Origin: Saprospiraceae bacterium
GTDB taxonomy: Bacteria > Bacteroidota > Bacteroidia > Chitinophagales > Saprospiraceae
Assembly: GCA_020631105.1 (NCBI GenBank)
Contig: JAHDHW010000026.1
Coordinates: 1-41,666, forward strand
DNA length: 41,666 nt
Reading direction: 5' to 3'
Below, one piece after another: positions 4,079-36,600 of this stretch. Every line of letters begins with the position of its first letter. Positions within the stretch are counted from its first letter, which is position 1. The translations under genes and the position numbers were made by a program. Under the pieces are notes generated by a model. It saw nothing but the letters and a program-made list of their open reading frames with translations. It did not search any database and had not been told where the DNA came from.

Positions 4079-5566
4079 TCAACGTAGCACCGAAACGGTC
4101 ATATTCCGATCATAGTCTCCCTGAATAACCGGAGATTGCTGGTTTGCGGTGTAATCCATTACATTCCCAGCGATGAATTGATACAATTCCTGAACGGTTA
4201 CAATACTATCATAATCGCGATCAGCTTCCCCTTTAAGTCCTCGCAAGAGAAAATGACTAAATACTCCTTGTCGAAGTCCGGTGGATTCGAGGGAGGTTTC
4301 TCCCGATTTTGAGGAAAGAATCAGTGCTGTTCCAGGGGCTGCTTGAGCCAGCGAATTATAATAATTCTTAAGAGTATTATCAATCATACCTTTAGCATTA
4401 AACATACTTCCAGAGTGGCAGGCGTCCGCGATAAACAGTTTATACTTGGCAGTACTATTATTAAACAAGCTACTTACTTCTGAATGGAGTAGTTTATTAT
4501 TCTCTCCATCAAAATCAATCGGCAGGAAAGATCCCTCCAGACCATGGCCTGAGTAATACATTAAGATTAGGTCATTAGGCCCAGCTTTGCCAAAGACATC
4601 ATTCATTGCTACGAGGATATTATCTTTAGTCGCAGCGTCATCGATTAATATTTTGATCTGTTCATCTTTTAATGCTCCACCTTCCGGGCTTTTTAAGAAT
4701 GCATACATACGGTAGGCATCATCATCTGTGTATTGCAAAGGTTGCATATGTTTGTAAGAAGATACTCCGACAACTACTGCCCATACTTTCATCTCTTTAG
4801 CCTCTTCGACCTGATAATATTCCTCTGAATCTTCTATGATTACATTTTCTGTAACATTCTGAATCATAGATTGATTGTAGCTTTTTCCCTGATAGGTACC
4901 AGCTCTCCAGATGCCTTCAATAACTTTTCCATCAAGCATATACATTGTTCCAACTCCATCAAAACTTCCTTCTGCCCAGGTGCCTTCATACCAGTTGCCA
5001 TCAGAATAATGACATACACCGTGTCCTGTAGGTTTGCCTGCGAAAAACTGGCCTTCATATTTTGCTTTACCTCCTTTATATATGTATACGCCTTCGCCGG
5101 CCTGGCAATCGCCACTAATACACCCCTCACTTCCGTCAACATTAAACAAGTGACCAATGTAAGCACCATTATGCCAAAGTCCGGTCACTTTATCTCCTGC
5201 TCTTTTATAATGAACACCTCTACCATGGCAGAAATTATTTCGAAACATTCCAACATATTTTTCGCCAGAGGCAAAATACCATGTACCGAAACCTGTCATT
5301 TCTCCATTGACAAAATTACCCTCATACTTACTCCCATCAACATACTCTAATACACCAACCCCATCAAAGCAATCACCATGTGCACATCCTACACGTGGCT
5401 TCATTGCTTTAGCAGTTACACTAGCATGACTCGATTGCCCTTTAGCAATCATCATGGGTTCTTCGCCTTTGTGTGCAAAAATAAAATCCTGATTGTTCTG
5501 GCTGTAAAGGTTGCCTGAAATGACAAGAAAAGTGAATAGGACTAAGAGTGTTCGATAGTGTTTCAT
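4079..5566 (-). CDS. Secreted MORN-repeat caspase-like (C14 family) peptidase
   Basis: A 495-residue protein with a Sec signal peptide (about 1-22, ending LYSQ). Residues 61-230 hold about six MORN-type repeats of the KYEGNFVNG / NWYEGTWAEG kind. Two C-x-x-G-D-C units (61-66 and 149-154) each open a block of repeats, suggesting an internal duplication. Residues 258-495 form a caspase-fold peptidase: WAVVVGVSSY start, catalytic histidine H341 in YYSGHG, catalytic cysteine C383 in IADACHSG. Both catalytic residues are present, so it is probably active. No T9SS sorting domain is seen, so the mature protein is probably periplasmic or otherwise exported. Its substrate and role are unknown. It appears to be transcribed alone: a terminator lies upstream and a hairpin downstream. 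Confidence 0.9.
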   Translation of the reverse strand: MKHYRTLLVLFTFLVISGNLYSQNNQDFIFAHKGEEPMMIAKGQSSHASVTAKAMKPRVGCAHGDCFDGVGVLEYVDGSKYEGNFVNGEMTGFGTWYFASGEKYVGMFRNNFCHGRGVHYKRAGDKVTGLWHNGAYIGHLFNVDGSEGCISGDCQAGEGVYIYKGGKAKYEGQFFAGKPTGHGVCHYSDGNWYEGTWAEGSFDGVGTMYMLDGKVIEGIWRAGTYQGKSYNQSMIQNVTENVIIEDSEEYYQVEEAKEMKVWAVVVGVSSYKHMQPLQYTDDDAYRMYAFLKSPEGGALKDEQIKILIDDAATKDNILVAMNDVFGKAGPNDLILMYYSGHGLEGSFLPIDFDGENNKLLHSEVSSLFNNSTAKYKLFIADACHSGSMFNAKGMIDNTLKNYYNSLAQAAPGTALILSSKSGETSLESTGLRQGVFSHFLLRGLKGEADRDYDSIVTVQELYQFIAGNVMDYTANQQSPVIQGDYDRNMTVSVLR

Positions 5567-13156: not shown

Positions 13157-15895
13157 CTATCGTATCAAACTTATTTTAAACGCTTTACTCGCACCATCAA
13201 TATTTACTTGAAGAAAATAGAGTCCTGCTGATAATCCTAATCGCTCTAAGTCCAGAGCAACCAAATGATCTCCACTGCCTTGTAATCCGCCCGCATCACC
13301 AAATACTTCTATTAGCTGTCCAGTCAACGAATACAACTCTAGTCTAACATTGGCAGACGTTGGTAAACGGTATTGTACGGACAATTGATCTTTTACCGGA
13401 TTTGGAAAGACTCTTACTTTGTGTATCTGCTCGATGTCCACTGTTGAGGAGATAAAGTCATAAACGGCAATCAGTGTATCTGCCTGAGTCAGCGAAATCG
13501 TTGTTCTTTTTGCGAGTGAATCTGCGATGATATTTCCAGCAGTGCTTTCCCAATGACTAAAGAAATATTCATCTTCGTACTCATCAAAAGCTTTCGTTTT
13601 GATTCTGTTTTCCATTCCTCCGAAGTATTCTCCGGTCCATGGGAAACTTTCTATATCCAAAGTATTAAAATCAATTTCCGCTACGCTATCCGGAGCGGTC
13701 AACAAAGTAACGGAGTAAGGCCCGTTCAATTCATCATAACACTCCAAAGCACCATCATCTAAGAGCTCACAACGCTGATTGATAAAGTCCTTCAGTTGCT
13801 CGACATTATCTTTCCAGCCATCGTATGTTCCGCCCCATCTTTCGATTTGTCTTGGCATTTCCGGATCAATCACATCCAGCATTCGATCAAGGGTGCTGAT
13901 CATATTTTCACAAGTGTATACGGTATTCATTAAATCCGCGTATCTACCATAATACAAATTTCGGAAGGTCTCATTTTCCTCCAGTAATTTCAGGAAGATT
14001 TTTTCATGTCGTCCAACATCTCCATCTCCCAAATCAGCTCCATTAGCTGCATAATTATCATAGATCCCCTGGCAGATATCATCCCAATCCGTATCACAGC
14101 AATAGGGATCGTCATTAATCGTCAAGGCAAAAATGCTATCCGTGGGAGGATAGGGACTTGAGCCATTCTGTACAGTATTACAAGAAAAAGGATCCAGAGG
14201 GTCTCCTGATCCAAAAAATACATCCATATAGTCTCCTATCACTTCAAGGTCACAAGGATCTGCATCCGGATTAGTATTCGGAACACCACTATAGTTGATA
14301 TAATAATCAAAGGTTGCATCCAAATCCCAAAGAATATAACCCCATTTTTTATGGTCACCATCAGGATTCCGCCCTCTCCACCATCCGGTGTTATAATTCA
14401 ACCAATCGGAAGCAACTACATTGAGGTTAACAATCATATAATCTATCAAACTCAATACATTCAGGCTATCTGTAACCACCTCATAATTTGCGGAATCGCT
14501 CATGTCATTGTTAAGCACAAAATCACGAAAATTCACCCAGTCGATCAAAGCCTGTTGCCCACCATATTCAATTTCTGTGGTTCCCCAGGTACTAAGATAT
14601 TGAATATCATACTTTCCCTGATCATAATACTCATCGGTATAATCATGATCAACTGGTCGTTCTCGCATACCGTATACTCCCCAATACTGGCCATTAAGAA
14701 AAAGTACAACTCGCTCTACTGCTCTCAAGTCTAGCTCCATCCCGCCTTCCTGAGAAAGCGTTTGTACATATTCATCCCGAATATGTGCACTACCCTGATG
14801 GGCCGCATCATTAATGGCCGGATAGTTATCATCCCCTGAATTCCGGAACATAAACTTTTGATATTCATCTCGGTCAGAGTAAGAAAACAAAGGTGCATTG
14901 ACCGCTTTGGAATATCCCATCTCATCCCTCGAAATCCAATCCAAACTTCGGTGAGGTAATACCCAGGAATCTTGTCCATGCCGATTTAAACTTCCAAACG
15001 AAGTGGCTTCCAACTCTCTGTTCGTATTAAAGTACTCAAGGGAGCCAATCGGAATCAAAGCCCCCTCTCCATTGGCTAAAGAAACGACCTGATCTGCAGC
15101 TACCGAGAATACTGCCAGGCTAAAAGTCTCATCAATAAAATAAGTTCGAAAGGTCATTTTACCAGGCAAGATCGTTGGGTCATTACTAAAGACCCTTGCC
15201 TTAACCACTGTAGTGGTATCAATCTGTATTGCATTAGAATATATAGGAGAACTGGTAGTTGGATTAGTCCCATCCAAGGTATAGTGCAAAGTAGAATTAG
15301 GAAGATTATTAATGATGCCTACAACCTGTGAACCTTCATAGAAGCCAGCCTCTAAGCTTAGTTCAGGCGTTGTAGTATACCCAATAAATTTTGGTGCTGC
15401 GTCATTGGAAGTACCTGGTGTTGGTTGCGTACAAATCCTCCATTCTGAAGCTCCGTCCGTTATTCGACAACGAGAATGTTCTACCAATGTCAAATCCATT
15501 GTATAGGATTCTAAAATTTCTTCATCAGCATTTGCCAGGACGATGAAGTCATTTCCAGTGGTCTGCGCGAGCTTGAAATTTGTATGGTACTCTCCATTAA
15601 CGACTTTATCGCGACCAGAGCACCAAAAGGTAAGAAAGCCTCCAGCTGGCAAAAAAGTACCTTCCGGAATCTCCCACTTTCCGGGGTTAGATTCTTTATC
15701 ACTAATGTACCAACCACTAATATTTACGGTACTGCTACCGGCATTATAAATTTCAATCCAGTCTTCAGTTCTATCAAAACTGTCATAGAAACTATTCAGA
15801 TTAGAGGCTGAATATTCATTAATTACCACTTGGGCAGGCAAAATATTTATCCCAATAAACAATAAGGAAAAGATAAGAGCAATGCGAGTCATCAT
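13157..15895 (-). CDS. T9SS-secreted CotH-type protein kinase with lamin-tail domain
   Basis: A 912-residue exported protein. Order: signal peptide (about 1-21); lamin-tail domain about 22-160 (EDWIEIYNAGS, ISGWYISD); chitobiase/hexosaminidase C-terminal-like domain about 172-250 (LHYTLDGTNPT); CotH kinase domain about 335-720; a beta-rich stretch; and a type A T9SS sorting domain about 825-912 (VRVFPNPVKDQ, AGLYFLQV). CotH proteins are atypical kinases that phosphorylate spore-coat or secreted proteins. The two conserved active-site areas are visible: SDWLNYN (D497) and ILWDLDATFD (D524/D526). A roughly 85-residue Cys-rich insert (540-625, with DPYCCDTDWDDIC) follows the metal motif. It is the last gene of the DUF4956-HlyD-TolC cluster, 129 nt after the TolC-like gene. 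Confidence 0.92.
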   Translation of the reverse strand: MMTRIALIFSLLFIGINILPAQVVINEYSASNLNSFYDSFDRTEDWIEIYNAGSSTVNISGWYISDKESNPGKWEIPEGTFLPAGGFLTFWCSGRDKVVNGEYHTNFKLAQTTGNDFIVLANADEEILESYTMDLTLVEHSRCRITDGASEWRICTQPTPGTSNDAAPKFIGYTTTPELSLEAGFYEGSQVVGIINNLPNSTLHYTLDGTNPTTSSPIYSNAIQIDTTTVVKARVFSNDPTILPGKMTFRTYFIDETFSLAVFSVAADQVVSLANGEGALIPIGSLEYFNTNRELEATSFGSLNRHGQDSWVLPHRSLDWISRDEMGYSKAVNAPLFSYSDRDEYQKFMFRNSGDDNYPAINDAAHQGSAHIRDEYVQTLSQEGGMELDLRAVERVVLFLNGQYWGVYGMRERPVDHDYTDEYYDQGKYDIQYLSTWGTTEIEYGGQQALIDWVNFRDFVLNNDMSDSANYEVVTDSLNVLSLIDYMIVNLNVVASDWLNYNTGWWRGRNPDGDHKKWGYILWDLDATFDYYINYSGVPNTNPDADPCDLEVIGDYMDVFFGSGDPLDPFSCNTVQNGSSPYPPTDSIFALTINDDPYCCDTDWDDICQGIYDNYAANGADLGDGDVGRHEKIFLKLLEENETFRNLYYGRYADLMNTVYTCENMISTLDRMLDVIDPEMPRQIERWGGTYDGWKDNVEQLKDFINQRCELLDDGALECYDELNGPYSVTLLTAPDSVAEIDFNTLDIESFPWTGEYFGGMENRIKTKAFDEYEDEYFFSHWESTAGNIIADSLAKRTTISLTQADTLIAVYDFISSTVDIEQIHKVRVFPNPVKDQLSVQYRLPTSANVRLELYSLTGQLIEVFGDAGGLQGSGDHLVALDLERLGLSAGLYFLQVNIDGASKAFKISLIR

Positions 15896-15931
15896 ATTAC
15901 AATAGGTATAATAGTTAATCTTAAAAAAGAG

Positions 15932-15966
15932 GATGGTCGAAAAGGCCTGATTTTGAAAAGACCATC
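15932..15966 (-). other. Intercistronic hairpin between the TolC-like and CotH genes
   Basis: GATGGTC (15932-15938) pairs with GACCATC (15960-15966) across a 21-nt loop, in the 129-nt gap before the CotH gene. There is no U-tract, so it is more likely an mRNA-processing or stability element than a terminator. The CotH gene could also have its own promoter here, but no consensus match was found. Confidence 0.35.
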
Positions 15967-16024
15967 GACTAATAAATATCCCTTCTTAAAGGTAATAGGA
16001 TTATTAACTGAACGTCGGATTTAC

Positions 16025-17284
16025 TTAACGGAAAGATTGCCTGGCATCTGACAGATAGTTAATTGAATTGGAGGAATGAAGCATTCCTTTTAGTGAGAGT
16101 AGTTCTAAGTAGCGAAAACAAGCAGCCTCTTCCAGTCGTCGAACATCTCTTTCTTGCTTGAGCATAATTGACTGCAACTGCAAGAGTGTTAGTGGCGAAA
16201 CACCTGATGTCTTTTTATATTTCTCTAAAGTATCGGCGTATTTGCTCGTCTCAATTTGCGCTTTCAATAGCTGATAGGCTTGCCAGATTTGATCAAATTT
16301 TTGATAAGCTTTCTTTACATCTTCTTCCCACTCCAGGATCAATAAAGAAAGTTGAAATACTTCATCTGCTCGTTCTAATTGAGCTTCATTAATTTCTACA
16401 CGATTATTTGATTTAGTAGGAATCATAAATCCAAGTCCAAACGAAAATTCTCTTGCAAAGGATAAGTTGTCCCGTCCTGCATACTTCGCTTGAGCAAATT
16501 CTAAAATACGCCGACTTTCGGCACGCTCCATTTCATATTCTAACTGTGCAGCATTCACCTCTAACTCCTGCATAGCGATCTCCGTTATCTGAGCAGTATC
16601 CGCCATTACTTCTTCTAAAACAGACCTCATCGTTTCTAAACTGATCCAGCCTTCTTTTTCCAACTCAAGACTTGAGACTTCTGTAATATCCGGTAGTAAG
16701 TTTTCAATAATAACCTCTCGCTGTAATTGCAATTGCAATTGTTCTTGAGCTAGTTCTTGCAAATCTTCCTCAACTTTTAATAAAGAGGTAATATCTAGCT
16801 GAGGTGCATTCACAGCATTTTTTTGATAGACCGTTCGCTGGTCTTCGAGAATAATCTTTTTGTCGGCCAATGCCGAAATAGCGGCATCGAGGTAATACCA
16901 TTCTGCCAAATATTCGTACCGATCTATTTGTTCTTGTTCATCTAACAACCTTGTTTTTAGCTCATAATGCTGCAGATTATTATTGGTAATTCGATCTTGC
17001 ACCCTTCGGCTTTCGCGGGAATTAAAACGCATTCTAAAGAGATATTCCTGCCGCCCCAGTTCCATTTCATCGCTTTCGGTACGCAGTTCTATTTCTTCAA
17101 CAAAAGGCATGGATTGATTTTCGGTTTGAAGAAAATCAATGTTCTTTTGAAGCAAAGCTCGAGATACAGATGATCGGTTCGCCTTCAATATATCCTCCGG
17201 AGTTACCCGTTGCTGCGCGTGCAAATCAGCGAATAAAAGAAAGAAACCAAGAAAAGTAAACAGGTAAGATATCCGGTAATACAT
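16025..17284 (-). CDS. TolC-family outer-membrane efflux-type protein
   Basis: A 419-residue protein with a signal peptide (about 1-24, ending LHAQ). The rest is almost entirely long, heptad-like, Q/E/L-rich helices (for example LQELAQEQLQLQLQREV) interrupted by short segments, as in TolC-type outer-membrane channel protomers. The late helix GVSPLTLLQLQSIMLKQERD resembles the conserved TolC C-terminal helix. It lacks some family conservation, so it is a divergent member. It starts 8 nt after the stop of the HlyD-type adaptor gene, a tight operon link. Confidence 0.8.
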   Translation of the reverse strand: MYYRISYLFTFLGFFLLFADLHAQQRVTPEDILKANRSSVSRALLQKNIDFLQTENQSMPFVEEIELRTESDEMELGRQEYLFRMRFNSRESRRVQDRITNNNLQHYELKTRLLDEQEQIDRYEYLAEWYYLDAAISALADKKIILEDQRTVYQKNAVNAPQLDITSLLKVEEDLQELAQEQLQLQLQREVIIENLLPDITEVSSLELEKEGWISLETMRSVLEEVMADTAQITEIAMQELEVNAAQLEYEMERAESRRILEFAQAKYAGRDNLSFAREFSFGLGFMIPTKSNNRVEINEAQLERADEVFQLSLLILEWEEDVKKAYQKFDQIWQAYQLLKAQIETSKYADTLEKYKKTSGVSPLTLLQLQSIMLKQERDVRRLEEAACFRYLELLSLKGMLHSSNSINYLSDARQSFR

Positions 17285-17292
17285 TTGCCGTA

Positions 17293-18393
17293 TTAATTAT
17301 CCAATCGAACAGTTGATTCTATTTTTTTCTCCCGCTTTTTATCAGTTTGCCCAAAAACAGTAAACCAGGAAGCGAGTGAATTATCTGATTCCCAATTATT
17401 AGAATTAAGCATTACTTTTTCTTTTTGCAAAAACGGATTCTGCCGGGGAATTCTGATCAGGACCTCTCGGCCATAGGTTTTTATCTCGGGCATTTTCCTT
17501 AGTCGCTCCGGAATTTCTACAATCCTCGAACCTAATCCAATCACCACTCCTTCTATGGTTTGCTCCGGATGCAAAGTTGACGAAACCATGAGGCTATCTC
17601 CTTCCTGTACTTGCAAAATCAAACTTTCATGTACATATCCTTTCACCAATGTTGGCCGACGTTCATAGAAATTGATCAGGGTCGAAAAAGATGAAATATT
17701 CTCCCCTTCCTTGCAAAGAATGTTACCAATGATCCCATCCGTCGGTGCCAGGATAGCTAGCTTCTGCTGCTCTTTTTCATAAAAATCAATTTCGTTTTGA
17801 ATACGCTCCTGTAACAACTTAGTTGGTGTGCGGAGTGCCCGTAACTCATTCTGCAATTGATTAATTTCCAAATTAATCGGATCTGAAACCAATTGAATTT
17901 GTTGCTGAAGACTCGCTATTTTCAACAAAGCAGGATTTGCGGTCGAATCAACCGTCGTTCCTTTGAAGCTTTGCAAATCCTCCAGTAATTTTTTGTTGTA
18001 TTCCATAGTCGCTTCGAGGCGCTGAATCTCCGCTTCCAGCTCCGCAACCTTGGTAGAACGCCGCAACTTCAACTGGCTAATCCGGTCCATAATTGTTTGC
18101 TGCTGCTGACGATTCTCGACCTCCAGTTGAACCAAATCAGTATTCGCATTATCAATCTTAAAGTCAATAGCATCTTGCTTCACTTCCATCAATAGTGCTC
18201 CCTTGGTAACAGCCTGCCCTGGGGTAACCAAAATCTTAGATACCAGTACTGGCTTATCATGGTTAAGCTCTGTTTCTTTATTCTCCGCAAACCCATAAAA
18301 AAAAGCGGATGATTGGTTGAAACCAACATTCATCTTGTACAAAAAGTAGCACAAAGGAATAGCAAGAAAGTATAAAATATTAATACGTTTCAT
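17293..18393 (-). CDS. HlyD-family periplasmic adaptor (membrane fusion protein)
   Basis: A 366-residue adaptor. An N-terminal membrane anchor (about 5-20) is followed by the first half of a biotinyl-lipoyl domain (about 48-75, KILVTPGQAVTKGALLMEV), a long alpha-helical coiled-coil hairpin (about 78-215), the second lipoyl half (LAILAPTDGIIGNILCKEGE, about 218-245) and a beta-barrel domain (VKGYVHESLILQVQEGDSL). Such proteins link an inner-membrane transporter to a TolC channel. Here the downstream gene is TolC-like (8 nt apart), but no ABC, RND or MFS pump is nearby. The only inner-membrane partner in the cluster is the DUF4956 protein encoded 17 nt upstream. Confidence 0.9.
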   Translation of the reverse strand: MKRINILYFLAIPLCYFLYKMNVGFNQSSAFFYGFAENKETELNHDKPVLVSKILVTPGQAVTKGALLMEVKQDAIDFKIDNANTDLVQLEVENRQQQQTIMDRISQLKLRRSTKVAELEAEIQRLEATMEYNKKLLEDLQSFKGTTVDSTANPALLKIASLQQQIQLVSDPINLEINQLQNELRALRTPTKLLQERIQNEIDFYEKEQQKLAILAPTDGIIGNILCKEGENISSFSTLINFYERRPTLVKGYVHESLILQVQEGDSLMVSSTLHPEQTIEGVVIGLGSRIVEIPERLRKMPEIKTYGREVLIRIPRQNPFLQKEKVMLNSNNWESDNSLASWFTVFGQTDKKREKKIESTVRLDN

Positions 18394-18410
18394 ATTCTGT
18401 ATACCTTAGC

Positions 18411-19106
18411 TTAAATTTGTGGGTTAGCATTATTTTGAAAAAGAAGGCTTAACACTTTAAGTGCTTCGAATGTCTTTAGCTCAGACACCAAATGTCCTCC
18501 CCTCGAAGAATCCTTTAATTTTATTCGGTACTCATAGAGTAAAATATTTTCCTTTTTCTCACTTGGAAAAACTTTATAACTCACCAGCACATAACTTTTG
18601 CAATACGTACTCAATAATTTCTCCAACTCTGGAAACTCATCATAGTCTCTAGGCACTTCGATCCGCAAGGTACCTACCAATGATTTCTTGGGGCTAAAAG
18701 GTGACAAACGCAATAAGAAGGCTGTGAGGCAAAAGCTCACTGTCCCGACAATCGCAATCGTAAAACCAAATACACCACAAGCTATTCCCGCAGCAATTGC
18801 CCCAAACATAAAAACAATATTCCTGGGATTACGAACAGTTGTTCGAAATCGAATAATTGATAAAGCACCCAGCATCCCAAGTCCTCTGGCAACACTATCT
18901 CCTATCGCTTGAATAATCATCGCCGCAACGATTGTAATTAGAATAATTGCCTGTAGAAAATGATTAGGTCGATCTACTCCCCGGGTGGTTTTTTCGTAGG
19001 TAAACGCAATTAGTATCCCCAGCGCTAAAGCACAAAGCACGGTAAACAAAATCGCAACGAATGTTGGATTATCTGAATTATATTGTAGTGACGAAAGGTC
19101 AAACAT
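18411..19106 (-). CDS. DUF4956 family integral membrane protein
   Basis: A 231-residue protein if translation begins at the ATG at 19106 (MFDLSSLQYN); the frame stays open upstream to an ATG at 19250, adding 48 residues with no membrane or family features, so the shorter start is preferred. Four hydrophobic segments lie at about 12-35, 50-66, 97-114 and 116-133. The diagnostic DUF4956 segment GALSIIRFRTTVRNPRN follows the second, and a roughly 95-residue soluble C-terminal domain ends the protein. DUF4956 genes are known neighbours of VTC-type polyphosphate polymerase and CotH genes in other bacteria. No VTC gene is present here. First gene of the cluster with the HlyD adaptor, TolC and CotH. 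Function unknown. Confidence 0.85.
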   Translation of the reverse strand: MFDLSSLQYNSDNPTFVAILFTVLCALALGILIAFTYEKTTRGVDRPNHFLQAIILITIVAAMIIQAIGDSVARGLGMLGALSIIRFRTTVRNPRNIVFMFGAIAAGIACGVFGFTIAIVGTVSFCLTAFLLRLSPFSPKKSLVGTLRIEVPRDYDEFPELEKLLSTYCKSYVLVSYKVFPSEKKENILLYEYRIKLKDSSRGGHLVSELKTFEALKVLSLLFQNNANPQI

Positions 19107-19525
19107 AGTTACGTCTTGCGTAAAGTTAAAATTAAGAAATTGTAAAGTAAAGATAAAGTCTGGAAGTTCATCTTTATTTATGCTATGTGTTTTGCAAATT
19201 TTGTTTTTAAAAGCTAAAAAGCTTTTGGCAAAGTACATTGTACGCTTCACACGTAAGCGAACTACAGTTAAAAATCACGCTTCAGTAGCTTTAGATGCTT
19301 CATATACTTGTAGTGCTAGCAGTAAAGCTTTGCTAAATCTCTCTTAAAGCGTACCTTTGACCTTGGAATATAATTGAACGAATAAACCTTTTTGGTGTAT
19401 ACCTGTTGTGTGTTTTACCAATTGTAGCCAGCAAGAGTCCTCGTCTAAATATGAAGTTATAATAGATTATTACATATATTTCGAATATTGGACTTTCAAC
19501 AATCTAACAGAATAAATAATACCGT
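19107..19525. other. Divergent intergenic region between DUF4956 and HMG-CoA synthase genes
   Basis: It contains the possible longer 5' extension of the DUF4956 frame (19107-19250), a consensus plus-strand promoter (19329-19359) and a roughly 160-nt leader ahead of the HMG-CoA synthase gene. An AGCTTTA/TAAAGCT inverted repeat (19287-19293, 19323-19329) abuts the -33 box. No clear minus-strand promoter was found. Confidence 0.5.
19329..19359 (+). promoter_or_regulatory. Promoter of the HMG-CoA synthase gene
   Basis: TTTG (19329-19332), a 19-nt spacer, TACCTTTG (19352-19359): a perfect Bacteroidota promoter. A start near 19366 leaves a leader of about 160 nt before the ATG at 19526, longer than those of the other genes here. 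Confidence 0.8.
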
Positions 19526-23019: not shown

Positions 23020-24054
23020 TTACATAATCGGGCATTTAACCTTCGTTGCTTTACGATAGTTCTTTTCCATTTTAATCACTTTCACAATAGAAACTTCAGG
23101 TCCTCCTTTTCCACGGCTCGCAGCAGTCCATTGAGAAATATTTACATCATAGGAAAAAGCAACGTGCCATGTTTCGTAATCAAACCTAACGGAAGCAACA
23201 ATCGCATCTGCTCCAGCTAAATCATTTTCAACATGCCATCGAAGCCATGCACCAAAGTATACATAGTATAAAGGCTTGCGTGGTGTGTTATGGTAAGTCT
23301 TAAATCGAGCAAAACTTCCCATGGTAATCTCTTTGTGTGGTCCCTGGTCAACAAAAATAAAGTTTGGCTTAATGTCAAAACCATCCGCCAGCTTCAGGCT
23401 TGCGCCACCGTGAACGGTTAGCTTACGATATAAGATATGCTGACGATCAGCATCATCCCGGTTATCAAAAGAAACGATAGGTTTATTTAAATGAAAAGCA
23501 GAAGCTCCGAGATAAAAAGAGTTATAACGATCTATTCTTTGAAACCAGCCAATCCCTGCTGACATGTCCCAATAATTAATATTGCTTCGTAAGCTTTCAC
23601 TACTTAAGGCAGCGATCTGCTCAAATGCTTCAATCTTTGTATAGTCTACACTATTATTTACCAAGCTATTCTGTACACCAAAAGAAATAAAACTTCGACC
23701 TCTTCTATCAAGTGCTCGCAAGTAAGACATTGCAAAGCCTGCAGATTTTGTTGAAAAGTTAAGATCTCCTGCACGGTCTGAGTATAATTGTAAACCTCCT
23801 GAAAGGAAGTCACGTGATCCAAAACCTTTAAGCTTCATATCCATAGAACCAATTACTGTTTTATAGCCATTCGTAACATCATTCCATTGCGAACGTGCAT
23901 TAGCTATAAAACGCATATCTCCATCGAATAATCCAGTCATAGCCGGATTAAGCAATGTAGGTGACGCATGAACATGCGAAAGGTGAATATCCTGAGCCTT
24001 GAGATTCCAAGCCCCCAATATTAATAGGATTACAAATAGTAGATTCAATTTCAT
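23020..24054 (-). CDS. PorP/SprF family type IX secretion membrane protein
   Basis: A 344-residue outer-membrane beta-barrel-type protein with a signal peptide (about 1-20, ending LKAQ). The mature start DIHLSHVHASPTLLNPAMTG and the following MRFIANARSQW are typical of the PorP/SprF family. Alternating beta strands fill the rest (for example SGGLQLYSDRAGDL). SprF-type proteins are encoded next to, and required by, large T9SS type B substrates such as SprB. The 4746-residue T9SS substrate gene lies immediately upstream on the same strand, with a 599-nt gap. The gene faces the lipoprotein gene across 57 nt without an obvious terminator. Confidence 0.92.
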   Translation of the reverse strand: MKLNLLFVILLILGAWNLKAQDIHLSHVHASPTLLNPAMTGLFDGDMRFIANARSQWNDVTNGYKTVIGSMDMKLKGFGSRDFLSGGLQLYSDRAGDLNFSTKSAGFAMSYLRALDRRGRSFISFGVQNSLVNNSVDYTKIEAFEQIAALSSESLRSNINYWDMSAGIGWFQRIDRYNSFYLGASAFHLNKPIVSFDNRDDADRQHILYRKLTVHGGASLKLADGFDIKPNFIFVDQGPHKEITMGSFARFKTYHNTPRKPLYYVYFGAWLRWHVENDLAGADAIVASVRFDYETWHVAFSYDVNISQWTAASRGKGGPEVSIVKVIKMEKNYRKATKVKCPIM

Positions 24055-24653: not shown

Positions 24654-27600
24654 TTAGTGTATTAATGTGACATTGCCTACTTTCATAAATGGTTCTGATC
24701 CGTCTCCCCTACAATTCCCCAGGATGTAGTAAACATAAACACCAGGATTTAAAACTTCCCCTCGGAAAGTACCATCCCATTTTATAGAAGGATCATTGGT
24801 TTCAAATACTTTCTCTCCCCAGCGATTAAATACACGTATGGTATGTACATCTACATTTTCATACCAGATCTCCCAGTGATCTCCATAACCTCCGCTTTGC
24901 GGGAAGATCACGTTATTCACTTCTACCGTTCCGAATTCACAGCCTTCTTGTACACGAAGCGTGATCACATCTTCATCCGGGCACCCTAAGCCGTTTTCGG
25001 CAGTTACGTAATAAGATGTGGTCGTTTGTGGCATTACATCAATATTTGAACAGCCATTACAGAGTAAATTGCCATCCATGTCATACCAATTGATTATCGC
25101 AGAAGTATCATTAACGCTAGCAGCAAGTGTTACACTATCCCCGAATACGGACTCAACATCTGATTCAACTTCCAGAAGAGGTCTAGGTTCAACAACAACT
25201 GTAACTTCCATTACTTCAATACCATCATCACATAACCCCTGATAACTAACCGTATAAGTGGTTGTCTCACTTGGAGAAGCTATTGGATCCAGGCAATCTT
25301 CACAGCTCAAATCAGTTGTAGGGAACCAGCTAACTTCTACTGTTTCTGATCCGGTAAGGAAAAGCTGAACTTCCTCGCCTTCACATATTACGGCACCATC
25401 ACCTTCCAGCCAAAGTTGTTCATAAACTAAAAGCTCAGTAATCACCACGCTATCACAGGCATTATCCGCATCAAAATGTTCAACGAATTGACCGCTTTCG
25501 AATTGATATGCACCATCAAGCCAAATACTATCGCCTTCACACATGGTAAACTCCTGAAAGGACTCGACTATATCTCCTCCCAGTGTTAACTCCGTAACAA
25601 GAATACTATCACAACCACTTACTGTTTGTAGCGTGTCATAGTAGAAGCCTGCATCCGTTTGATAATTATCATAAATCAAGATACTATCTCCTGCACAAAC
25701 CATTAACTCCATAGGCGTTTGCTCGCTTGGAATTACTGTTAATTCAACGGTAATTAAACTATCACAGCCAAAGCTGTTTATGTATTGCTCGGTGTAGGTA
25801 CCGCTTGCTACTTGGTCTGCTCCAGCAAAGTAATAACTATCGCCTTCACATATCGTTACCATCCACGAAGTATCGGTAGCAGGGAGGACCGTTAGTTCCG
25901 TCACATAAACACTATCACAACCTGCAGTAGTGGTATATTCATCTGTGAAGACTCCTGAACTTGTTTGCCAGGCTCCTCCTGCAAAAATCGCATCGCCTTC
26001 ACATATTACCGTATCTCTGTAAAAATCATAAGCCGGACTTACAATGATTGAATAATGTACAATACTATCACAACCATATTGTGTCTGTAGAGTATCCGTA
26101 TAAACACCGGTTTCACTCTGCCAGTCTCCCGCAACGAAAATGCTATCCCCTTCACAGAAGGCGAAATTCCTATCTAATTCATATTCCGGATGATAATCCA
26201 GGGTAAGAAAAACAATACTATCACACGAACTTCCGATCGCAATGGTATCCGAATAAACCCCAGGGTCGGAGATATAACTATCATTAAACCATAAGCTATC
26301 ACCAGGGCAAACGTATGCATTCGTAAATGCTGGTTCTGACTGATATATATTCAGATTGATTGTTATAAGGCTATCGCAAGTATTTTGTCCAGTAAGGGTT
26401 TGAGTATAGGTGCCCGCTACTGTTTCTGGATTACCAAATATCATTGCCGTATCACCAGGACAGATAGTAATATTTTCAACAGTACTGACAATGTCTAACA
26501 ATTGTAGTTCAATATTCCAAATACTATCACAGCCAAATTCATTAGTGTAAACTTCTGAATACACTCCCTCACTAGTTTCAAAATTACCATTTACCCAGAT
26601 TCCATCTCCAGGACATAAAACCACCAGACTATCTTGTGAAGACACCGGATGTACGGAAAGATAAGTAACGACTATACTATCACAACCCGTTGAAGAAACA
26701 TAAGCATTCGCCCAGCTTGCATCGTCAAAGTAGGTTGTTCCCATATAATTATCTCCTGAACACAGGTCGATTACTATGGTGTCATTAAAACTTTCAATAA
26801 GCTGAATATTGGTAACAACAATACTATCACAACCATAAGTGGATTGTAATGAATCCGTCCAAAGTGTATCACTTTCGTACACAATTCCTTCAAAGGCTTG
26901 TCCAAGACATAGTTGAATATCATTCTGCTCTATAGTAGGCTCATGTACAATTACTGCATAATTTCTTAAACTATCACAACCTGCCTGCGACAACAAACTA
27001 TCTACCCAGATACTGTCTTGATAATAAACCACACCATTTAAGGAATCGCCATAACAGACATGATCGACCTCAAAAAACTCGAAAGCATCAATAACTAATA
27101 ATTCAAAAGTTACGGTACTATCACAACCGTTTTCGCCGACTAATACTTCTGTATATGTCCCTGTAGTATTATATACATTTGAACCTATGGTGACTTGCTG
27201 TCCGGAACATATAGTATCCCTTAGCAAAGTATCCTGTGGTAAAGCGATTTGAACAATTATGGTTTCCAGACTATCGCAACCTGCTGTAGAAGCATATTGA
27301 TTTGTCCAGGTAGAATCTGCAAAGTAAGGTATCCCGGCATATAAATCTCCATAACACAAGTCTACCTGAATGGTGTCCGTAAAGTTATCGATCAGGAAGA
27401 GATTTGTTGTCACGATACTATCGCAACCAAAAATGGTCTGTAAAGAATCTACAAAGGTTGTATCCGTAGTATAAATTATACCTTGATAGGCCTGACCTAA
27501 ACAAAGCTCCACATTTTGATCTTGAACCACAGGATCATGATAGTCAATAAAAGTATTTACGATACTATCACAACCATTGGCATTTATCAAACTATCAATC

Positions 27601-30600
27601 AATAAGGTATCACCACTAAATAACTGCCCTTCGAATAATTCGCCCACACAAAGATCAACCGTAATATTAATTTGCCCAGCATCTAATACTAAGAGGTTAA
27701 ACACAACGGTACTATCACAACCGTTAACTCCCGTCAAGGTTTCTGTATAAGTACCTGTAGCAGAATAGGTATTACCGCCGATGACCACTTCATTTCCGGC
27801 ACAAATCGTATCACTCAATATAGTGTCCTGCGGTAAAGCAACCTGAACGATTGTCGTTTCCAGACTATCGCAACCCGCCATGGATACAAATTGATTTGTC
27901 CAGGTAGTATCCGAGAAATAATTTATGCCGTCATAAGGTTGACCATAGCATAAGTCTACACGAATAGTATCCGTAAAGTCATTAATCAAAGTCAGACTTC
28001 TGTTTACGATACTATCACAACCATAAACCGTTTGCAGAGAATCTACAAAGGTTGTATCCGATGTATAAACTACACCTTGATAAGCTTGCCCAAAACAAAG
28101 CTGAACTTCCTGATCTTGAATTACCGGATCATGATAATCAATAAAGGTATTTACGATACTATCACAACCGTATATATTCACTAAACTATCTATCAATAAA
28201 GTATCACCACCAAATACCTGCCCTTCAAATAACTCGCCCACACAAAGGTCAACTGTAATATTCACCTGATCCGGATCAACTACCAAAAGATTAAGCACAA
28301 CGGTACTATCACAACCGTTTACACCTGTCAGCGTTTCCGTATAAGTACCTGTAGCAGAATAGGTATTACCACCAATGACCACTTCATCTCCGGCGCATAT
28401 CGTATCACTCAACATTGTGTCTTGCAATAAAGCAACTTGGATTATGGTCGTTTCTAAACTATCACAACCCGCTACAGAGGTGTATTGATTTGTCCAGGTA
28501 GAGTCCGCAAAATAACTTACTCCACTATAAAGCTCACCATAACAAAGGTCAACTCTTATGGTATCTGTAAAATCATTAATTAAGGTAAGATTTCGCTGTA
28601 CGATACTATCACAGCCAAAGCTTGTTTGCAAAGAATCTATAAAGGTAGTATCCGATGTATAAACAATCCCCTGATAAGCTTGCCCAAAACAAAGCTGAAC
28701 TTCCTGACTTTCAATTACCGGATCATGGTAATCAATAAAGGTGTTTACGATACTATCACAACCATTAGCATTTATCAAACTATCAACCAATAAGGTATCG
28801 CCACTAAATAACTGCCCTTCAAATAATTCGCCCACACATAGATCAACAGTAACATTAGTTAAATCATTATCGAGTACTACTAAGCTAAGGACAACGGTAC
28901 TATCACAACCATTAACTCCGGTAAAAGATTCGGTATAACTACCTGGGTTTGTTATATTCTGAACACCAAATTCATAAGTATCTCCAAAGCAAATAGTGTC
29001 TGTAAAATTGACCAGGACTTCAGGGGCAACAATTATTTGAGTTTCATGAATACTATCACAACCTGCTATACTGGAATAAGTAACTGTCCAAGTTGTATCG
29101 CTAAAATAATTTATACCTTGATAAGCGTCTCCAGAACACAGATCAACTGTAAGCGTCTGAAAATATTCCGGGTTAACAGTAATATTAGTATGTACAATAC
29201 TATCACAGCCATTAATACTCAATAGAGAGTCCACCAAGCTTGTATCAGCAGTATAAAAAACACCTTGATAGGCATCTCCTTCACAAATACTCACGGGGAC
29301 TGTCTCTTCATAGAATGGCAGTATATTTAGCTGTAAAGCTACAATACTGTCACAGCCTAAGACGGAGCTCAGCGTATCATAATAAATACCTTCGTCTGAT
29401 ATTACATTGCCTGCAAAGAGTAAAGAATCTCCTGTACAAATAGTTTCCTCCAACTGTGTAGGGGCAATCGGTGAAATAACAATTAACTGAGCTTCATTAC
29501 TAATTACATTACAGAAAGGATCCGTCAATGTTGAAGGATCATTCGAGACCAGGCAACGATACCATCCGGCATCTTGTGCTGTAGCCTGCGAGATTTGTAA
29601 TGTGCTGATAATTGCTCCAAAGATGTTTGACCATTCCTGACCATCCGCACTATACTGCCATTGATAAACTGGTGTAGTATATCCCGAGGTAATGGTCACT
29701 TCAAAACTTACCGGCTCTAACTCACAAACCGTGTTGTCAGGGCCGACCATTGATTCAGCCTCCGGTCCACAGCCGATCACTGTAATTTCCTGGGTGATCG
29801 TTGTTTCATTCCCACAATTATCTACTGCTGTCCAAACACGAGAGATCGTGTAAGAGTCAATACATATACCGGGGTTGCTCGTCTCTTCAAAATTAACGGT
29901 GACATCTGAATCACAATTATCAATCGCTTCCGGATCTTCAACCGCAGGAATAGAATCACAATCAACGGTAATATCTTGCGGGAAGCTTAAAAATTCTGGA
30001 AGTTCATTATCCTGAACAGTTATATTCTGAACGGTTGTGGCCGTATTTCCACAAAGATCACTAGCCACCCATGTCCTAATAATCAGGTAACTATCCGCAC
30101 AGTCTCCGTCATAAATAGCTTCATCAAAATCAATCGTTACCTCTCCTCCACACTCATCAGTTGCTTCCACTAAATCCGGATCAGGAATCGCACCACATAC
30201 TACAGTAGCATGCGCTGGTTCATTCAAAAATACCGGAGGAGTAATATCCTCTACATTTATCTCTTGGGTAAATATGGTAACATTAGCACATTCATCAGTA
30301 GCGGTCCAAATACGTTGAATGGTATAATTCCCTGGACAGCCATTAGAAATACTGTCTGTTGTTAATTCAAGTATTACATCCGCACTACAAATATCACTTA
30401 CTTGCGGAGCAACCACTTCCGGAACCTGTCCACAGGTAATTGTAGTATCAATGAACACACCGGATATAACCGGAGCTATCGTATCAATTACTGTTATGGT
30501 CTGAATTTGTTCTGTGGTATTTCCACAGGCGTCAGCCAAAAACCAGGTTCTGGTAATTACCTGTCCATTCGGACAGCCTGGGTCAACAACAGTACTATCA

Positions 30601-33600
30601 GAGAAATCTACTGTTCCAGGGTTTGAGGTACAATTATCAAATACATTATTTGCAGTCCCTGTGATTACCAGGTCATTCGGATCTTGTCCACACTGTAATG
30701 TTATATCCTCCGGAATATCAAAAGTAGGTGCGACGGTATCAATCAAACTAATGACTTGGGTATCACTCATTATATTACCACACCCATCTGCCAATGACCA
30801 GGTTCGGTAAATAGAAATATTATTCGCACAATCCGGATCAACTTCAACAATATCCGTATAGCTTGCCTCACCTACGCTCGATGCGCAGCCATCTACTTCA
30901 TCGGTAACATCCCCCGTAAAAGTCAAATCCGTAATATCTGTATCACAGGCCAAGGTAATATCAGCCGGCACCGTAAAGACTGGTGCGATGGTATCTAATA
31001 AGGTGATTGTTTGCATCCCAGTCTGGACATTACCGCAAGCATCGCTTAAGGTCCAGGTACGAATGAAATAAGTTGAACTTTGACAATCTCCACCTACGAA
31101 CATACTATCCGCATAAGTTGCTGTACCATTTAATGGAGTACATCCATCCGCTTCATTCGTCACCATACCAGTAAATGCCAGATCAGTTATATCCTGATCA
31201 CAGGTAATAGTAACATCATCTGGCAGGGTAAAACTAGGAGCAATAGTGTCGACTACGGTAATGACCTGTAAGCCATTTGCAACATTCCCACAGCTATCTG
31301 CAATTGACCAAGTACGGTAAACCCAGGTATTAGCAGCACAATTATCATCTACAACAACACTATCCGCATAGGTAATACTTCCAGTACTACCACAATTATC
31401 CCATACCGCCGAGGGCTCCCCAACTATTAATAAATCATTCGGGTCTTCTTCACAGGTAATAGTAATATCAACTGGCAGTGTAAACACAGGATTAATAGTA
31501 TCCAGTATTTCAATGGTTTGAATATCAATACTTGTATTACCGCAAGCATCTACCAAAATCCAGGTACGACTAATCACTGCTGAACTTCCACAATTATTTT
31601 CACCATCTACGACATCGTTATATGTAACTACGACAGCTCCATCACAATTATCCGTTGGAAAATCTACATTGCCCGTAAGGCTTGTAGAAGCATCATAGGT
31701 ACATGATTCATCAAGATATAGTGTTATATCTTCGGGTGCAGTAAATTGAGGTGCAATCGTATCTATCAGAGTAATAAACTGTGAACCGCTCACCGTATTT
31801 CCACAGGCATCCGAAACAATCCAGCTTCGCTCAAAAGTTCCTGTACCATTACAATCCGTAAGGCCATTAAGATCGTCATTATAAACGATGGTAAAATCAG
31901 TAGGACAATTATCACTAATCACACTTACTGAACCAATAGAATTGGTAGAAGTATCAATCAAACAATTAATATCAACATATAAAGTGGTATCTACAGGGAA
32001 AATAACTGAAGGTGCAATGGTATCCAGTACTGTTATAGTCTGTACACCCGTAGCGATATTTCCGCAAACATCTGTCAATTCCCAAACCCTCAATAAAACA
32101 CCTGAGCCATTACATTCTCCCAACCCTGAAAAATCATCGGTGTATTCGATAGTAACTGGATTACCACAATTGTCCTGAACATCTGTTACCACGCCAGTAC
32201 TGGTCGATGTGGTATCTAAACCACACGAACTATCTAAGAACACGGTCAGGTCATCCGGCATTGTAAATGTCGGCGCCAAAGTATCCACTACATTAACTAA
32301 CTGTGTACCTTCACTCAAATTACCACAATCATCAATTACCGTCCATGTTCTTGTAAAACTTCCAGTACTATTACAGCCAACTAATCCAGTAAAGTCATCT
32401 ACATAACTTACGGTTAAATTATTATCACAATTATCCGTAGCATCAACGACCCCGCCAATTGCAAGGACACTGGTATCTAATGCACATTGTACATCCACAT
32501 ATACGGTAGCATCACTTGGCGTTGTAAAGGTTGGTGCAATGGTATCTGCCACCGTGATTAACTGCTCACCGGAAATACTATTTCCACATTCATCGGAAAC
32601 CATCCAGATACGAACGAAGGTCCCTGTATTATTACAGCCAGAGAGGCCACTAAAGTCATCGGTATAAGTAGTTGTAACATTTGCGGTACAATTATCTCCG
32701 CCAGTTGTGGCTACTCCGGTATTCGCAGTGGTCGTATCTAGTCCGCAACTCAGGTCAAAGTAAACCGTTGCGTCAGCAGGTATATCTAATGAAGGCGTGA
32801 TAGTATCCTGTACGGTAATGGTCTGCACCCCCTCAACACTATTTCCACATTCATCACTAATCGTCCAGGTACGTAATATAGTCCCGGTATTATTACAATC
32901 ATTTAACCCAGAAAAATCATCTGCATAATTTACAGTTGGATCCGAGGTACAATTATCATTAACTGCATTTGCTCCCCCTACGGTAGCTAAAGACAAGTCA
33001 AGTCCACATGTCTCATCAAGATAAACTATGGTATCGGAAGGAATTACAAAGCCTGGCTGAATCGTATCCAGGACCATTATAAACTGTTCATGCTGTGAAG
33101 TATTCCCACATAAATCAGAGATCGTCCAAACCCGAATTAATACTCCTGTGTTATTACACTCTGTTAATCCGGTAAAATCATCTACATACTGAACATCAAC
33201 AGCATTTCCACAATTATCTATAATGTCGGTTACTGCTCCAATATTTGTGATGGAGGTATCCATTTCACAATTAACATCTAAATACAAAGTAACATCGTCC
33301 GGCGTAGTATAAGTCGGCGCAATTGTATCTAATACCGTTATCAATTGTTCCCCAATTGTCTCATTACCACAGGCATCACTCACGGTCCAGGTACGTATAA
33401 ACGAACCACTATTATTACAGCCAGTTAATCCCGCGAAATCATCAATATAAGTAACTAATACATCATTGCTACAATTATCGACTGCATCTACCACTCCTCC
33501 AATCGCTATAATACTTGTATCTAAATTACATTGTGCATCAATATATACAGTGGCATCGCTCGGCACAGAAAAAGTCGGCGCAATCGTATCCATTACTGTA

Positions 33601-36600
33601 ATGAATTGTTCGCCGCTTACACTATTCCCACATTCATCCGAAACTATCCAGGTTCGAACAAAAGTGCCTGTACTATTACACCCTCCTAATCCTGTCAGGT
33701 CATCCACATAAGAAGTCGTAACGTTGGGAGTACAATTATCCCCTCCGGTAGTTGCCACTCCAGTACTGATCGCTGAGGTATCAAGACTACAGGCATTATC
33801 AAAATAAACAGTGACATCTGTTGGTACGGAAAGCGTTGGTGTGATGGTATCTTGTACCGTGATTGATTGCTCTCCTGTAAAACTATTACCGCAATCATCG
33901 GTGATGGTCCAGGTCCGAATTACGGTCCCGGTATTATTACACTCTGTTAATCCGGAAAAGTCATCAGTATAATTTACAAGTGGATCGTTAGAGCAATTAT
34001 CATTTATATTACTTGCCCCTCCAATTGTAGTTAAAGAAAGATCCAGCCCACATGTACCGTCTAAATAAATTATCGTATCAGATGGAATACTAAAAGTTGG
34101 TTGTATAGTATCCAACACCGTAATCATTTGTTCAAACGATGAAGTATTTCCACATACATCGGAGATAGTCCATGTTCTGATTAAAGTCCCGGTATTATTA
34201 CATTCTGCTAATCCGGAAAAATCATCCACATACTGAACATCAACTGTATTTCCACAATTATCCGCTACACCCGTAACTTCTCCTGTATTATTGGTGGTAG
34301 TATCCAAGCCACAACTATTATCCAGGTATACCGTAATGTCATCCGGTGTATTATACGTTGGCGCAATTGAATCAACAACTGTAATCAGTTGCTCCCCATT
34401 AGTAAAATTGCCACAGGCATCACTAACCGTCCAGGTGCGTATAAAACTCCCTGTACTATTACACCCGCTGAGTCCAGCAAAATCATCTGTGTAGGTAACC
34501 GTCAAATCATTTGTACAGTTATCGTTGGCATCTACCACTCCTCCCGTCGCTATTATACTAGTGTCCAACAAGCATTGAGCATCAATATAAACGGTTGCAT
34601 CAGTCGGTGTCGTAAAGGTTGGTGCAATCGTATCCAGCACCGTTATGATTTGTTCTCCAGTGGCCATATTCCCACAGTCATCCGCCACAATCCAGGTTCG
34701 AACAAAAGTACCGGTACCATTACACTCTGTTAGACCATCAAGTTCATCAACATAGCTTATATTTAGCGTAGCTGTACAATTATCATCACTGGAAACGGGA
34801 GCTCCAGTATTCGCTATTGTTGTATCAAGACTACATCCGGGTTCAAAGTAAACGGTAGCATCATTCGGTAATTCGAAAGTTGGCGTAATGGTATCTCTAA
34901 CAATTATATTTTGAGTACCCGTTGCTACGTTTCCGCATTCGTCTGTAACTGTCCAGGTACGAACGACTGTCCCTGTATTATTACAACCCGTTAAACCTTG
35001 CAGGTCATCAGAATAAGTAATTTCAACATCTGCCGGGCAATTATCCGTAGCATCTGTTATGGTGATATCCGTAGTCGAAAGGTCAAATCCACACTGAACA
35101 TCCAGAAAAATTTCAGTATCTGCTGGCGGGGTAAAAGTAGGTGATATAGTATCAATGACTGTTATACTTTGAATGCCGCTTGCTACATTCCCACAAGGAT
35201 CCGTTACTGTCCAGGTTCTTGAAAAAGTACCGGTACCGTTACAGCCGGTTAGACCATCAAAGTTATCCGTATAGCTTACTAAAATATCCGCACCGCAGTT
35301 GTCATTAGTTAAGTCTATTCCACCTAAGTCTGAGACGGTTGTATCTAATGTACATTGAGCACTGATATAAACAACAGCATCCTCCGGCAGTACATATTGC
35401 GGAGCGATAGTGTCCACAAGTGTTATTATTTGTTCGCTGATTCTTACGTTTCCGCAGGCATCAGCTACGCTCCAGGTACGGATGATCGTACCGGTTTCAC
35501 TACATTCCGTTAGTCCGCTTGCATCATCAGTATATGATACCTGAAAATCATTTGCACAAGCGTCAGATACTACAGTAGGCGCGCCAATCACTGCAGAATC
35601 TGTATTTACCTGACAATCATCATCCAGATACAAGGTTACGTTTTCAGGGCTTGTAAAGATCGGCGCAATAGTATCAATCACTTCGATCGTCTGTACCATG
35701 GAATTAATATTACCACAGGCATCACTCAATGTCCAGGTTCGTTCGATAGTAAAAGTATGTTCACAGGCAGGTGTCCCACTTATTACGTCTGTATAAGTAG
35801 GTGTTCCAATATTACTATCGCAATCATCAGAAACATTAGTAGTTGTTCCTGTAATCAAAAGGTCCTCCGGATCAAGATCACAAGAAATCGTAATATCCTC
35901 CGGGAGATCAAATACCGGTGGCGTAGTATCTTCTAAGATTATAATTTGATCCTGTGAAAAAACATTCCCACAATCATCAGCAAGCATCCAGGTACGGACT
36001 ATTCTAGTCGAGCCATTACAAGGCGTATTTTCTTCTATAACATCTGTATAAGTAGCTTCCCCCGTTACACTTTGACAGCCATCGGTCTCTCCGGTTGCAT
36101 CTCCCGTTAAATTCAAATCATTAGGATCCTGACTACAGTCAAGTGTTATATCTGCTGGTGTCGTAAAGCTAGGAACAATATTATCGACAATAGTAATCTC
36201 CTGGACTCTGGAAGAAGCATTGCCACAGGCATCCGTTAGGGTCCAGGTTCGATTAATTTTTGAGGAGCCATCACAATAATTAGCAGTGATAAATTCATCT
36301 TCATATTCTAAAAGTCCTACAAATTGATAACAGTTGTCCGATTCATCACTGATTTCTCCGGTAATATTCAAATCATCCGGATCATCTTCACAACTAATAG
36401 TTACATCCGAAGGAGGAGTAAAGGTTGGTGCCTTGTTATCTTCTAAAGTGATGATTTGAACAATCGAGGTATCATTACCACAATCATCTGACAAATACCA
36501 GGTTCGCTCAATATAGCCAGCACCTTCACATGGTGTATCCGTAAAATAATTATCCGAATATGTTGCCTCTCCAATATTGGTGCTACAGTCATCTGCTTCC

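Follow-up and report, generated by a model that had tools for sequence, protein, structure and literature searches.

Genes for VTC-type polyphosphate polymerases, DUF4956 membrane proteins and CotH-type kinases form a gene group that the accessible part of PMC7112168 describes next to the Pel clusters of streptococci, clostridia and bifidobacteria. In the yeast VTC complex, according to the accessible text of PMC9911596, cytosolic polyphosphate synthesis is coupled to translocation via a membrane channel whose lining residues are basic. For the CotH of the spore coat, the source of ATP is called unanswered in the part of PMC7821199 available to us. Here we describe a related arrangement in an envelope with two membranes. 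The DNA analysed is a stretch of 41,666 nucleotides from a Saprospiraceae bacterium (assembly GCA_020631105.1, contig JAHDHW010000026.1, positions 1–41,666, forward strand; hereafter the window), part of a draft genome of 6.0 Mb. Metagenome-assembled genomes (MAGs) of Saprospiraceae are the closest named relatives of that genome. The window carries a cassette of genes for a DUF4956 protein, an HlyD-type adaptor and a TolC-like channel, next to a CotH gene. Three genes that travel together even in bacteria only distantly related, with no pump gene adjoining and often beside polyphosphate-making enzymes or secreted kinases, suggest a machine moving polyphosphate or a similar polymer outward.

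All four genes lie on the minus strand. The first (18411–19106; 231 aa, ATG at 19106) encodes a predicted inner-membrane protein matching DUF4956 (PF16316, E 3e-14, 53.5 bits against a cut-off of 30.6). After 17 nt comes the gene of a periplasmic adaptor (17293–18393; 366 aa; Pfam HlyD_D23 30.7 bits against 30, HlyD_3 25.3 against 22.2), after 8 nt that of the outer-membrane channel (16025–17284; 419 aa), and after 129 nt that of a 912-aa secreted protein (13157–15895) with LTD, chitobiase-C-like and CotH domains (CotH 91.1 bits against 23.8) and a sorting tail of the type IX secretion system (T9SS). Near its N-terminus the adaptor has a single hydrophobic segment, and its C-terminal part holds a strongly conserved block, GSRIVEIPERLRK...KTYGRE; the adaptor's profile matches HlyD, EmrA and MacA structures. 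By sequence, the channel protein had no Pfam match at E 0.01 and no NCBIfam match at 0.1, and a profile search of PDB sequences returned four irrelevant chains only; the top PDB match of its AlphaFold2 model (pLDDT 88) is E. coli TolC (Foldseek E 7.6e-13, TM 0.63/0.55). Coordinates, Pfam and fold thus bear out the gene order, gaps and TolC-like label given in an earlier note made from the letters alone.

In the window's family, 108 of 150 genomes hold DUF4956 relatives, and in its phylum 60 of 395; further away they were detected in 117/167 genomes of the phylum of L151 (Fibrobacterota) and 5/247 of that of L169 (Desulfobacterota), these two phylum names being taken from the titles of the two loci. 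Loci came mostly from best-scoring matches (of 303 loci from the genome collection, the 80 that scored best) and neighbourhoods were fetched for selected relatives; the tallies that follow therefore describe non-random samples. They rest on 163 DUF4956 ORFs (open reading frames) of distinct sequence, with L085 excluded and L306 and L309 dropped as exact repeats of L305 and L308. A draw centred on G153, a MAG titled Thermoanaerobaculia, gave Bacteroidota again and was excluded from the counts; because its locus L164 draws the same genomes as the window's phylum, its title or binning may be wrong.

HlyD and TolC genes stand within six ORFs on the same strand for 121 of the 163 DUF4956 ORFs, and 116 of these 121 cassettes have the immediate order DUF4956–HlyD–TolC. 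The remaining ORFs comprise 27 with VTC and no HlyD (15 of them with CotH), six with CotH alone, five with none of these, and four with HlyD and no called TolC, among which L324 has a Pfam OEP gene in the slot, L303 meets a contig end, and L310 and L091 remain. Close orthologues are followed downstream by HlyD and TolC in 95 of 99 cases, contig ends accounting for the misses L108 and L161. Since the order is immediate in 116 of 121 and the HlyD–TolC junction overlaps by exactly 4 nt in 11 of the 41 loci first fetched, the arrangement is not chance: DUF4956, HlyD and TolC make up one co-inherited three-gene cassette. The earlier note had expected four genes in conserved order. The three-gene core upholds that expectation and CotH does not, being near only 37 of the 121 cassettes, and we dropped the term four-gene operon.

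On a quick, unrooted DUF4956 tree (162 rows thinned to 105) the HlyD label changes four times. After further omission of rows at contig ends (L161, L040, L303) and of the very long L294, L312 and L292, the HlyD-linked rows together with the HlyD-less L157 took one side of a branch in the resulting 99-row tree (SH-aLRT 97), which is consistent with a single origin of HlyD-linked DUF4956, and inside that group VTC linkage changed once. The simplest history would have HlyD and TolC join a VTC–DUF4956–CotH ancestor a single time, with one loss of VTC linkage in the window's group. A distinct protein of about 355 aa precedes VTC–DUF4956 in three cassette-less loci of the window's phylum (L326:5945–7012, L328:9572–10630, L330:8673–9737). 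It has no Pfam adaptor match and is HlyD-like by hhalign (probability 96.6, E 5.8e-10, 207 columns), from which we infer that adaptors joined VTC–DUF4956 at least twice. Each of these loci also has, 3' of DUF4956, a gene for a beta-propeller with SdiA-regulated and Phytase-like matches above cut-off (L326:8438–9211, L328:7374–8168, L330:6448–7206). Propeller-like stretches with Pfam scores below cut-off also occur in the phylum of L151, within an HlyD fusion (L297, 5556–7769) and in a gene between HlyD and TolC (L295, 8712–9668); L298 has a long HlyD in which no propeller was matched.

Adaptors and channels of these families normally serve an inner-membrane ABC, RND or MFS pump, and the window's own genome offers a control: of its five other HlyD-like genes, four have an ABC, MacB or RND pump gene as neighbour, while the neighbour of the fifth (L367) is an OEP channel gene and the flanking sequence examined holds no pump. 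Neither a pump nor a VTC gene adjoins the window's cassette in a Pfam scan of the window's ORFs. Of the 184 genes immediately next to cassettes we scanned 183: on the cassette's strand 55 downstream and 60 upstream, and 68 on the opposite strand (L143 left out). No recurrent pump family appears among the 25 commonest families per list, although singletons may be hidden, and the sole pump-type match among the families listed is one ABC_tran in the 60 upstream neighbours. The cassette is real, conserved and without an adjoining pump gene, which supports the earlier note's placing of DUF4956 where a pump would stand; the consistent pairing with a pump elsewhere that would have spoken against it did not emerge among the families listed.

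The DUF4956 protein itself had been described as having four helices. The predicted model corrects this to five helices in the membrane part, followed by a ferredoxin-like C-terminal domain (pLDDT 77, pTM 0.58). Fold searches liken that domain to NikR, ACT-type and other ferredoxin-like domains, the C-terminal structure of MgtC (2lqj) being one among many such matches (rank 49, E 0.028, with a model of pTM 0.58). They list no match for the membrane domain, a part that they barely test, and DUF4956 has no sequence match to VTC chains. Membership of the MgtC/SapB family (PF02308) was rejected at 16.8 bits, under the cut-off of 31.4. Two arginines, R86 and R88, are present in 98–100% of both DUF4956 types (124 HlyD-linked and 33 VTC/CotH-linked rows), while near-invariance of R95, G69, D70, Q52 and T40 is confined to the HlyD-linked type, where position 95 is basic. 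By the positive-inside rule, R86–R95 would face the cytoplasm and G69–D70, in the predicted turn between TM2 and TM3, the periplasm. A second DUF4956 gene in the window's genome (L033:8669–12378, G000:C237) is 25% identical, and the gene after it encodes 1007 aa with a beta-helix and a weakly matching CotH domain; VTC is also nearby in several family loci related to it.

TolC proteins can serve pumps in trans, and MgtC-like proteins can be regulators or scaffolds. The adaptor and channel might then serve a pump encoded elsewhere, with DUF4956 merely regulating or scaffolding it, a role that its ligand-type ferredoxin-like domain and weak MgtC match would suit. We consider this quite unlikely: DUF4956 pairs with VTC in 27 genes where no HlyD or TolC is called, the families listed beside cassettes hold no recurrent pump, and the window's adaptor, at 485 bits with the cassette profile, is distant from the genome's five other HlyD-like proteins, which reach at most 67 bits.

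What the cassette might carry is suggested by the genes that join it. VTC (PF09359) lies in the same cluster for 19 HlyD-linked DUF4956 genes, mostly from Fibrobacterota. In the phylum of L151, 13 of the 15 HlyD-linked cassettes fetched have the order DUF4956–HlyD–TolC–VTC, three of them with an extra, propeller-like gene between HlyD and TolC; of the other two, L310 has VTC and no called TolC, and L303 is cut by a contig end. VTC directly follows TolC in L146 (titled Chitinivibrionales), L151 (titled Chitinispirillaceae) and L169 (titled Desulfobacterales), the last with CotH upstream as well. The order is HlyD, TolC, VTC, CotH, DUF4956 in L289, and in L324, from the window's phylum, VTC comes after the Pfam OEP channel gene. 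L293 groups TolC, VTC and HlyD, the DUF4956 gene of the same MAG ending contig L161. In the cultured Neolewinella agarilytica (L154; DSM 24740), polyphosphate kinase 1 (PPK1) occupies the VTC slot.

These VTC proteins retain 23 invariant columns across 12 sequences, among them R94/R96, E109/K111, R176, R188, E231/K233 and K259 (numbering of L151:9189–10067). We take the invariant columns to be the catalytic residues of Vtc4, with which the alignment is consistent; the VTC profile aligns with yeast Vtc4 structures (E 1.5e-17), and a single-protein search of PDB was unproductive. The earlier note's remark that no VTC gene is present holds beside the window's cassette and fails for relatives, so that the idea of a VTC-free system was abandoned. 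It had also proposed export of a phosphoryl donor, nucleotide or substrate. With VTC in the clusters of 19 relatives, polyphosphate is a likelier exported species than a nucleotide. The window's genome has a single VTC match, which lies on another contig next to genes for riboflavin and glycosyltransferase functions, and one PPK1 match. About 1.8 kb separate that PPK1 gene from another CotH gene, which is encoded on the opposite strand (L176:1–5582, G000:C197).

We propose that DUF4956–HlyD–TolC is a pump-less tripartite envelope machine, a branch of the VTC–DUF4956–CotH system, and most likely a polyphosphate exporter, a proposal to which we give even chances of being right. By analogy with the yeast complex, a cytoplasmic polymerase (VTC, or in Neolewinella perhaps PPK1) would feed polyphosphate into DUF4956 as membrane translocator, with the basic R86/R88 cluster at its predicted cytoplasmic mouth. 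Polymer synthesis would drive export, in place of a pump's ATP hydrolysis. HlyD and TolC would carry the path onward across the periplasm and outer membrane, where secreted CotH and LTD proteins may act on or with the polymer. Gene order and history give the conduit fairly good support. For polyphosphate as its cargo, support is moderate where VTC is linked and weak in the lineage of the window; the polymerase gene is unlinked in the window's clade, and the cargo there is therefore inferred by descent only.

Several observations weigh against polyphosphate export. PPK1 adjoins one of the 121 cassettes only, and on the 105-row tree the window falls in a 58-row group (support 98) without any VTC linkage. 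Nor is a distant polymerase associated with the cassette: among 150 genomes of the family, VTC occurs anywhere in the genome in 30 of 59 with HlyD-linked DUF4956 versus 51 of 91 without (Fisher p 0.62; the 59 were hand-picked at ≥138 bits, and adding two fragments gives 31/61). We therefore rejected VTC in trans as the general partner in the window's family. Nine cassettes of family f24 in the window's phylum (L315, L317–L323, L325) have neither VTC nor CotH near, the next gene in the four scanned being a short-chain dehydrogenase; CotH linkage changes 15 times inside the HlyD-linked group of the 99-row tree; and the close orthologues L157 and L091 are without part of the cassette, with no contig end as cause. 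Covariation gives no sign of a contact between DUF4956 and HlyD: across 116 cassettes, the maximal mutual-information z of this pair is 5.8 versus 5.6–6.2 in five shuffled pairings. The values for HlyD–TolC (7.8 versus 5.3–5.7) and DUF4956–TolC (6.8 versus 5.3–5.9) exceed the shuffled ones, an excess that may be shared ancestry. On the supporting side, mirror-tree distances among the three proteins correlate at r 0.85, 0.81 and 0.78, without a species-tree control.

Some of these points would fit the same machine with another cargo in the window's clade, an anionic polymer, lipid or small molecule, the VTC-linked relatives then showing ancestry and not present function. VTC linkage is absent from the 58-row group, a difference of one change on the tree, no association in trans takes its place, and in f24 the dehydrogenase sits in the VTC slot. 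However, CotH or LTD genes are near the cassette in both branches, PPK1 adjoins it in Neolewinella, and R86, R88 and R95 are unchanged, and we regard a different cargo as unlikely. In the nine f24 loci the gene after the cassette encodes 238–261 aa, and a DUF6580 gene precedes the L315 cassette.

CotH is a frequent but inconstant neighbour. It lies within six ORFs of 37 of the 121 cassettes and is not near the other 84, some of which are cut by contig ends. Downstream same-strand neighbours (n=55) include 17 CotH and 16 LTD genes, and upstream ones (n=60) seven and 11. CotH matches in the window's genome number 13, two of which fall within the window's CotH gene, which makes roughly twelve genes; with a dozen in 6 Mb, adjacency to the cassette by chance would, on a rough estimate, be rare. 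The link to CotH made in the earlier note is real in this sense, and optional. In an alignment of 10 proteins (the window's and nine cassette-linked), D497, W498, N502, D524 and D526 are invariant. The catalytic aspartates of B. subtilis CotH are D228 and D251, as given in the available portion of PMC7821199; no solved CotH chain matched, hence no residues were mapped onto these two.

The unanswered ATP source of spore-coat CotH, together with the 37 CotH-linked cassettes, lends some appeal to the earlier note's reading that the conduit supplies ATP or another nucleotide with which secreted CotH phosphorylates surface proteins. With CotH not near 84 cassettes and its linkage so changeable on the tree, and with the cluster's recurrent enzymes being predicted polyphosphate polymerases rather than nucleotide carriers, we hold this to be very improbable. 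A use of exported polyphosphate by CotH would be conjecture. The full version of that idea, in which synthesis-driven export via DUF4956–HlyD–TolC brings polyphosphate to the surface as phosphoryl donor for secreted CotH kinases, is unlikely as it stands, though less so than nucleotide supply.

The passage of polyphosphate across the outer membrane is an open question on which the cassette bears. In the available part of a 2023 paper on the pseudo-capsule that gonococci make of polyphosphate, the one statement is that other gene products are possibly involved in translocation (PMC10237660). The accessible portion of a paper on a Zetaproteobacteria stalk cluster mentions CotH and does not contain the words VTC, HlyD or TolC (PMC8250860). 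In our searches of the open-licence literature DUF4956 appeared in three papers, no paper contained three of DUF4956, MgtC, CotH, VTC domain, polyphosphate polymerase and periplasmic adaptor, and of four papers listed for polyphosphate export or secretion none was on bacterial export, judged from title and start of abstract. If the proposed export is correct, the cassette would represent a tripartite envelope machine that lacks a classical pump; if polyphosphate also serves as donor, a single gene cluster would combine a dedicated exporter of polyphosphate with the energy supply for phosphorylation outside the cell. Because a relative of the cassette is present in a named cultured strain, N. 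agarilytica DSM 24740, both the crossing of polyphosphate and the donor of CotH can be tested by gene removal.

Elsewhere in the window, a 4746-aa ORF (24654–38894) has HYR-like domains as well as a CHU_C T9SS signal, is followed by a PorP/SprF gene (23020–24054) and probably encodes a giant T9SS surface protein, and one protein combines MORN repeats with a caspase domain (4079–5566). Using what we take to be the Bacteroidetes-type promoter consensus, we found six motifs in the window versus 2.3 expected, one of them (19329–19359, plus strand) upstream of an HMG-CoA-synthase-like gene; the same search found none on the minus strand ahead of DUF4956.

Set beside the described systems, the cassette shares DUF4956 and CotH genes with the VTC–DUF4956–CotH group, and VTC itself in the 19 VTC-linked relatives, but adds HlyD and TolC, lacks linked VTC in the window's clade and is found in hosts with an outer membrane. 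With the yeast VTC complex (PMC9911596, as far as its accessible text goes) it has in common the VTC core residues of the relatives' polymerases and, as we propose, a basic-lined membrane path beside the polymerase. It differs in its separate polymerase and membrane genes, in the lack of a DUF4956–VTC sequence match and in its putative two-membrane extension. The MgtC/SapB family may resemble DUF4956 in its predicted multi-helix membrane part and ACT/ferredoxin-like C-terminal domain, but DUF4956 scores below the Pfam MgtC cut-off and keeps other gene partners. Like the tripartite efflux and type I secretion systems MacAB–TolC, AcrAB–TolC and HlyBD–TolC, the cassette pairs an HlyD-type adaptor with a TolC-fold channel; unlike them, it has no adjoining ABC, RND or MFS gene, and DUF4956 stands in that place.

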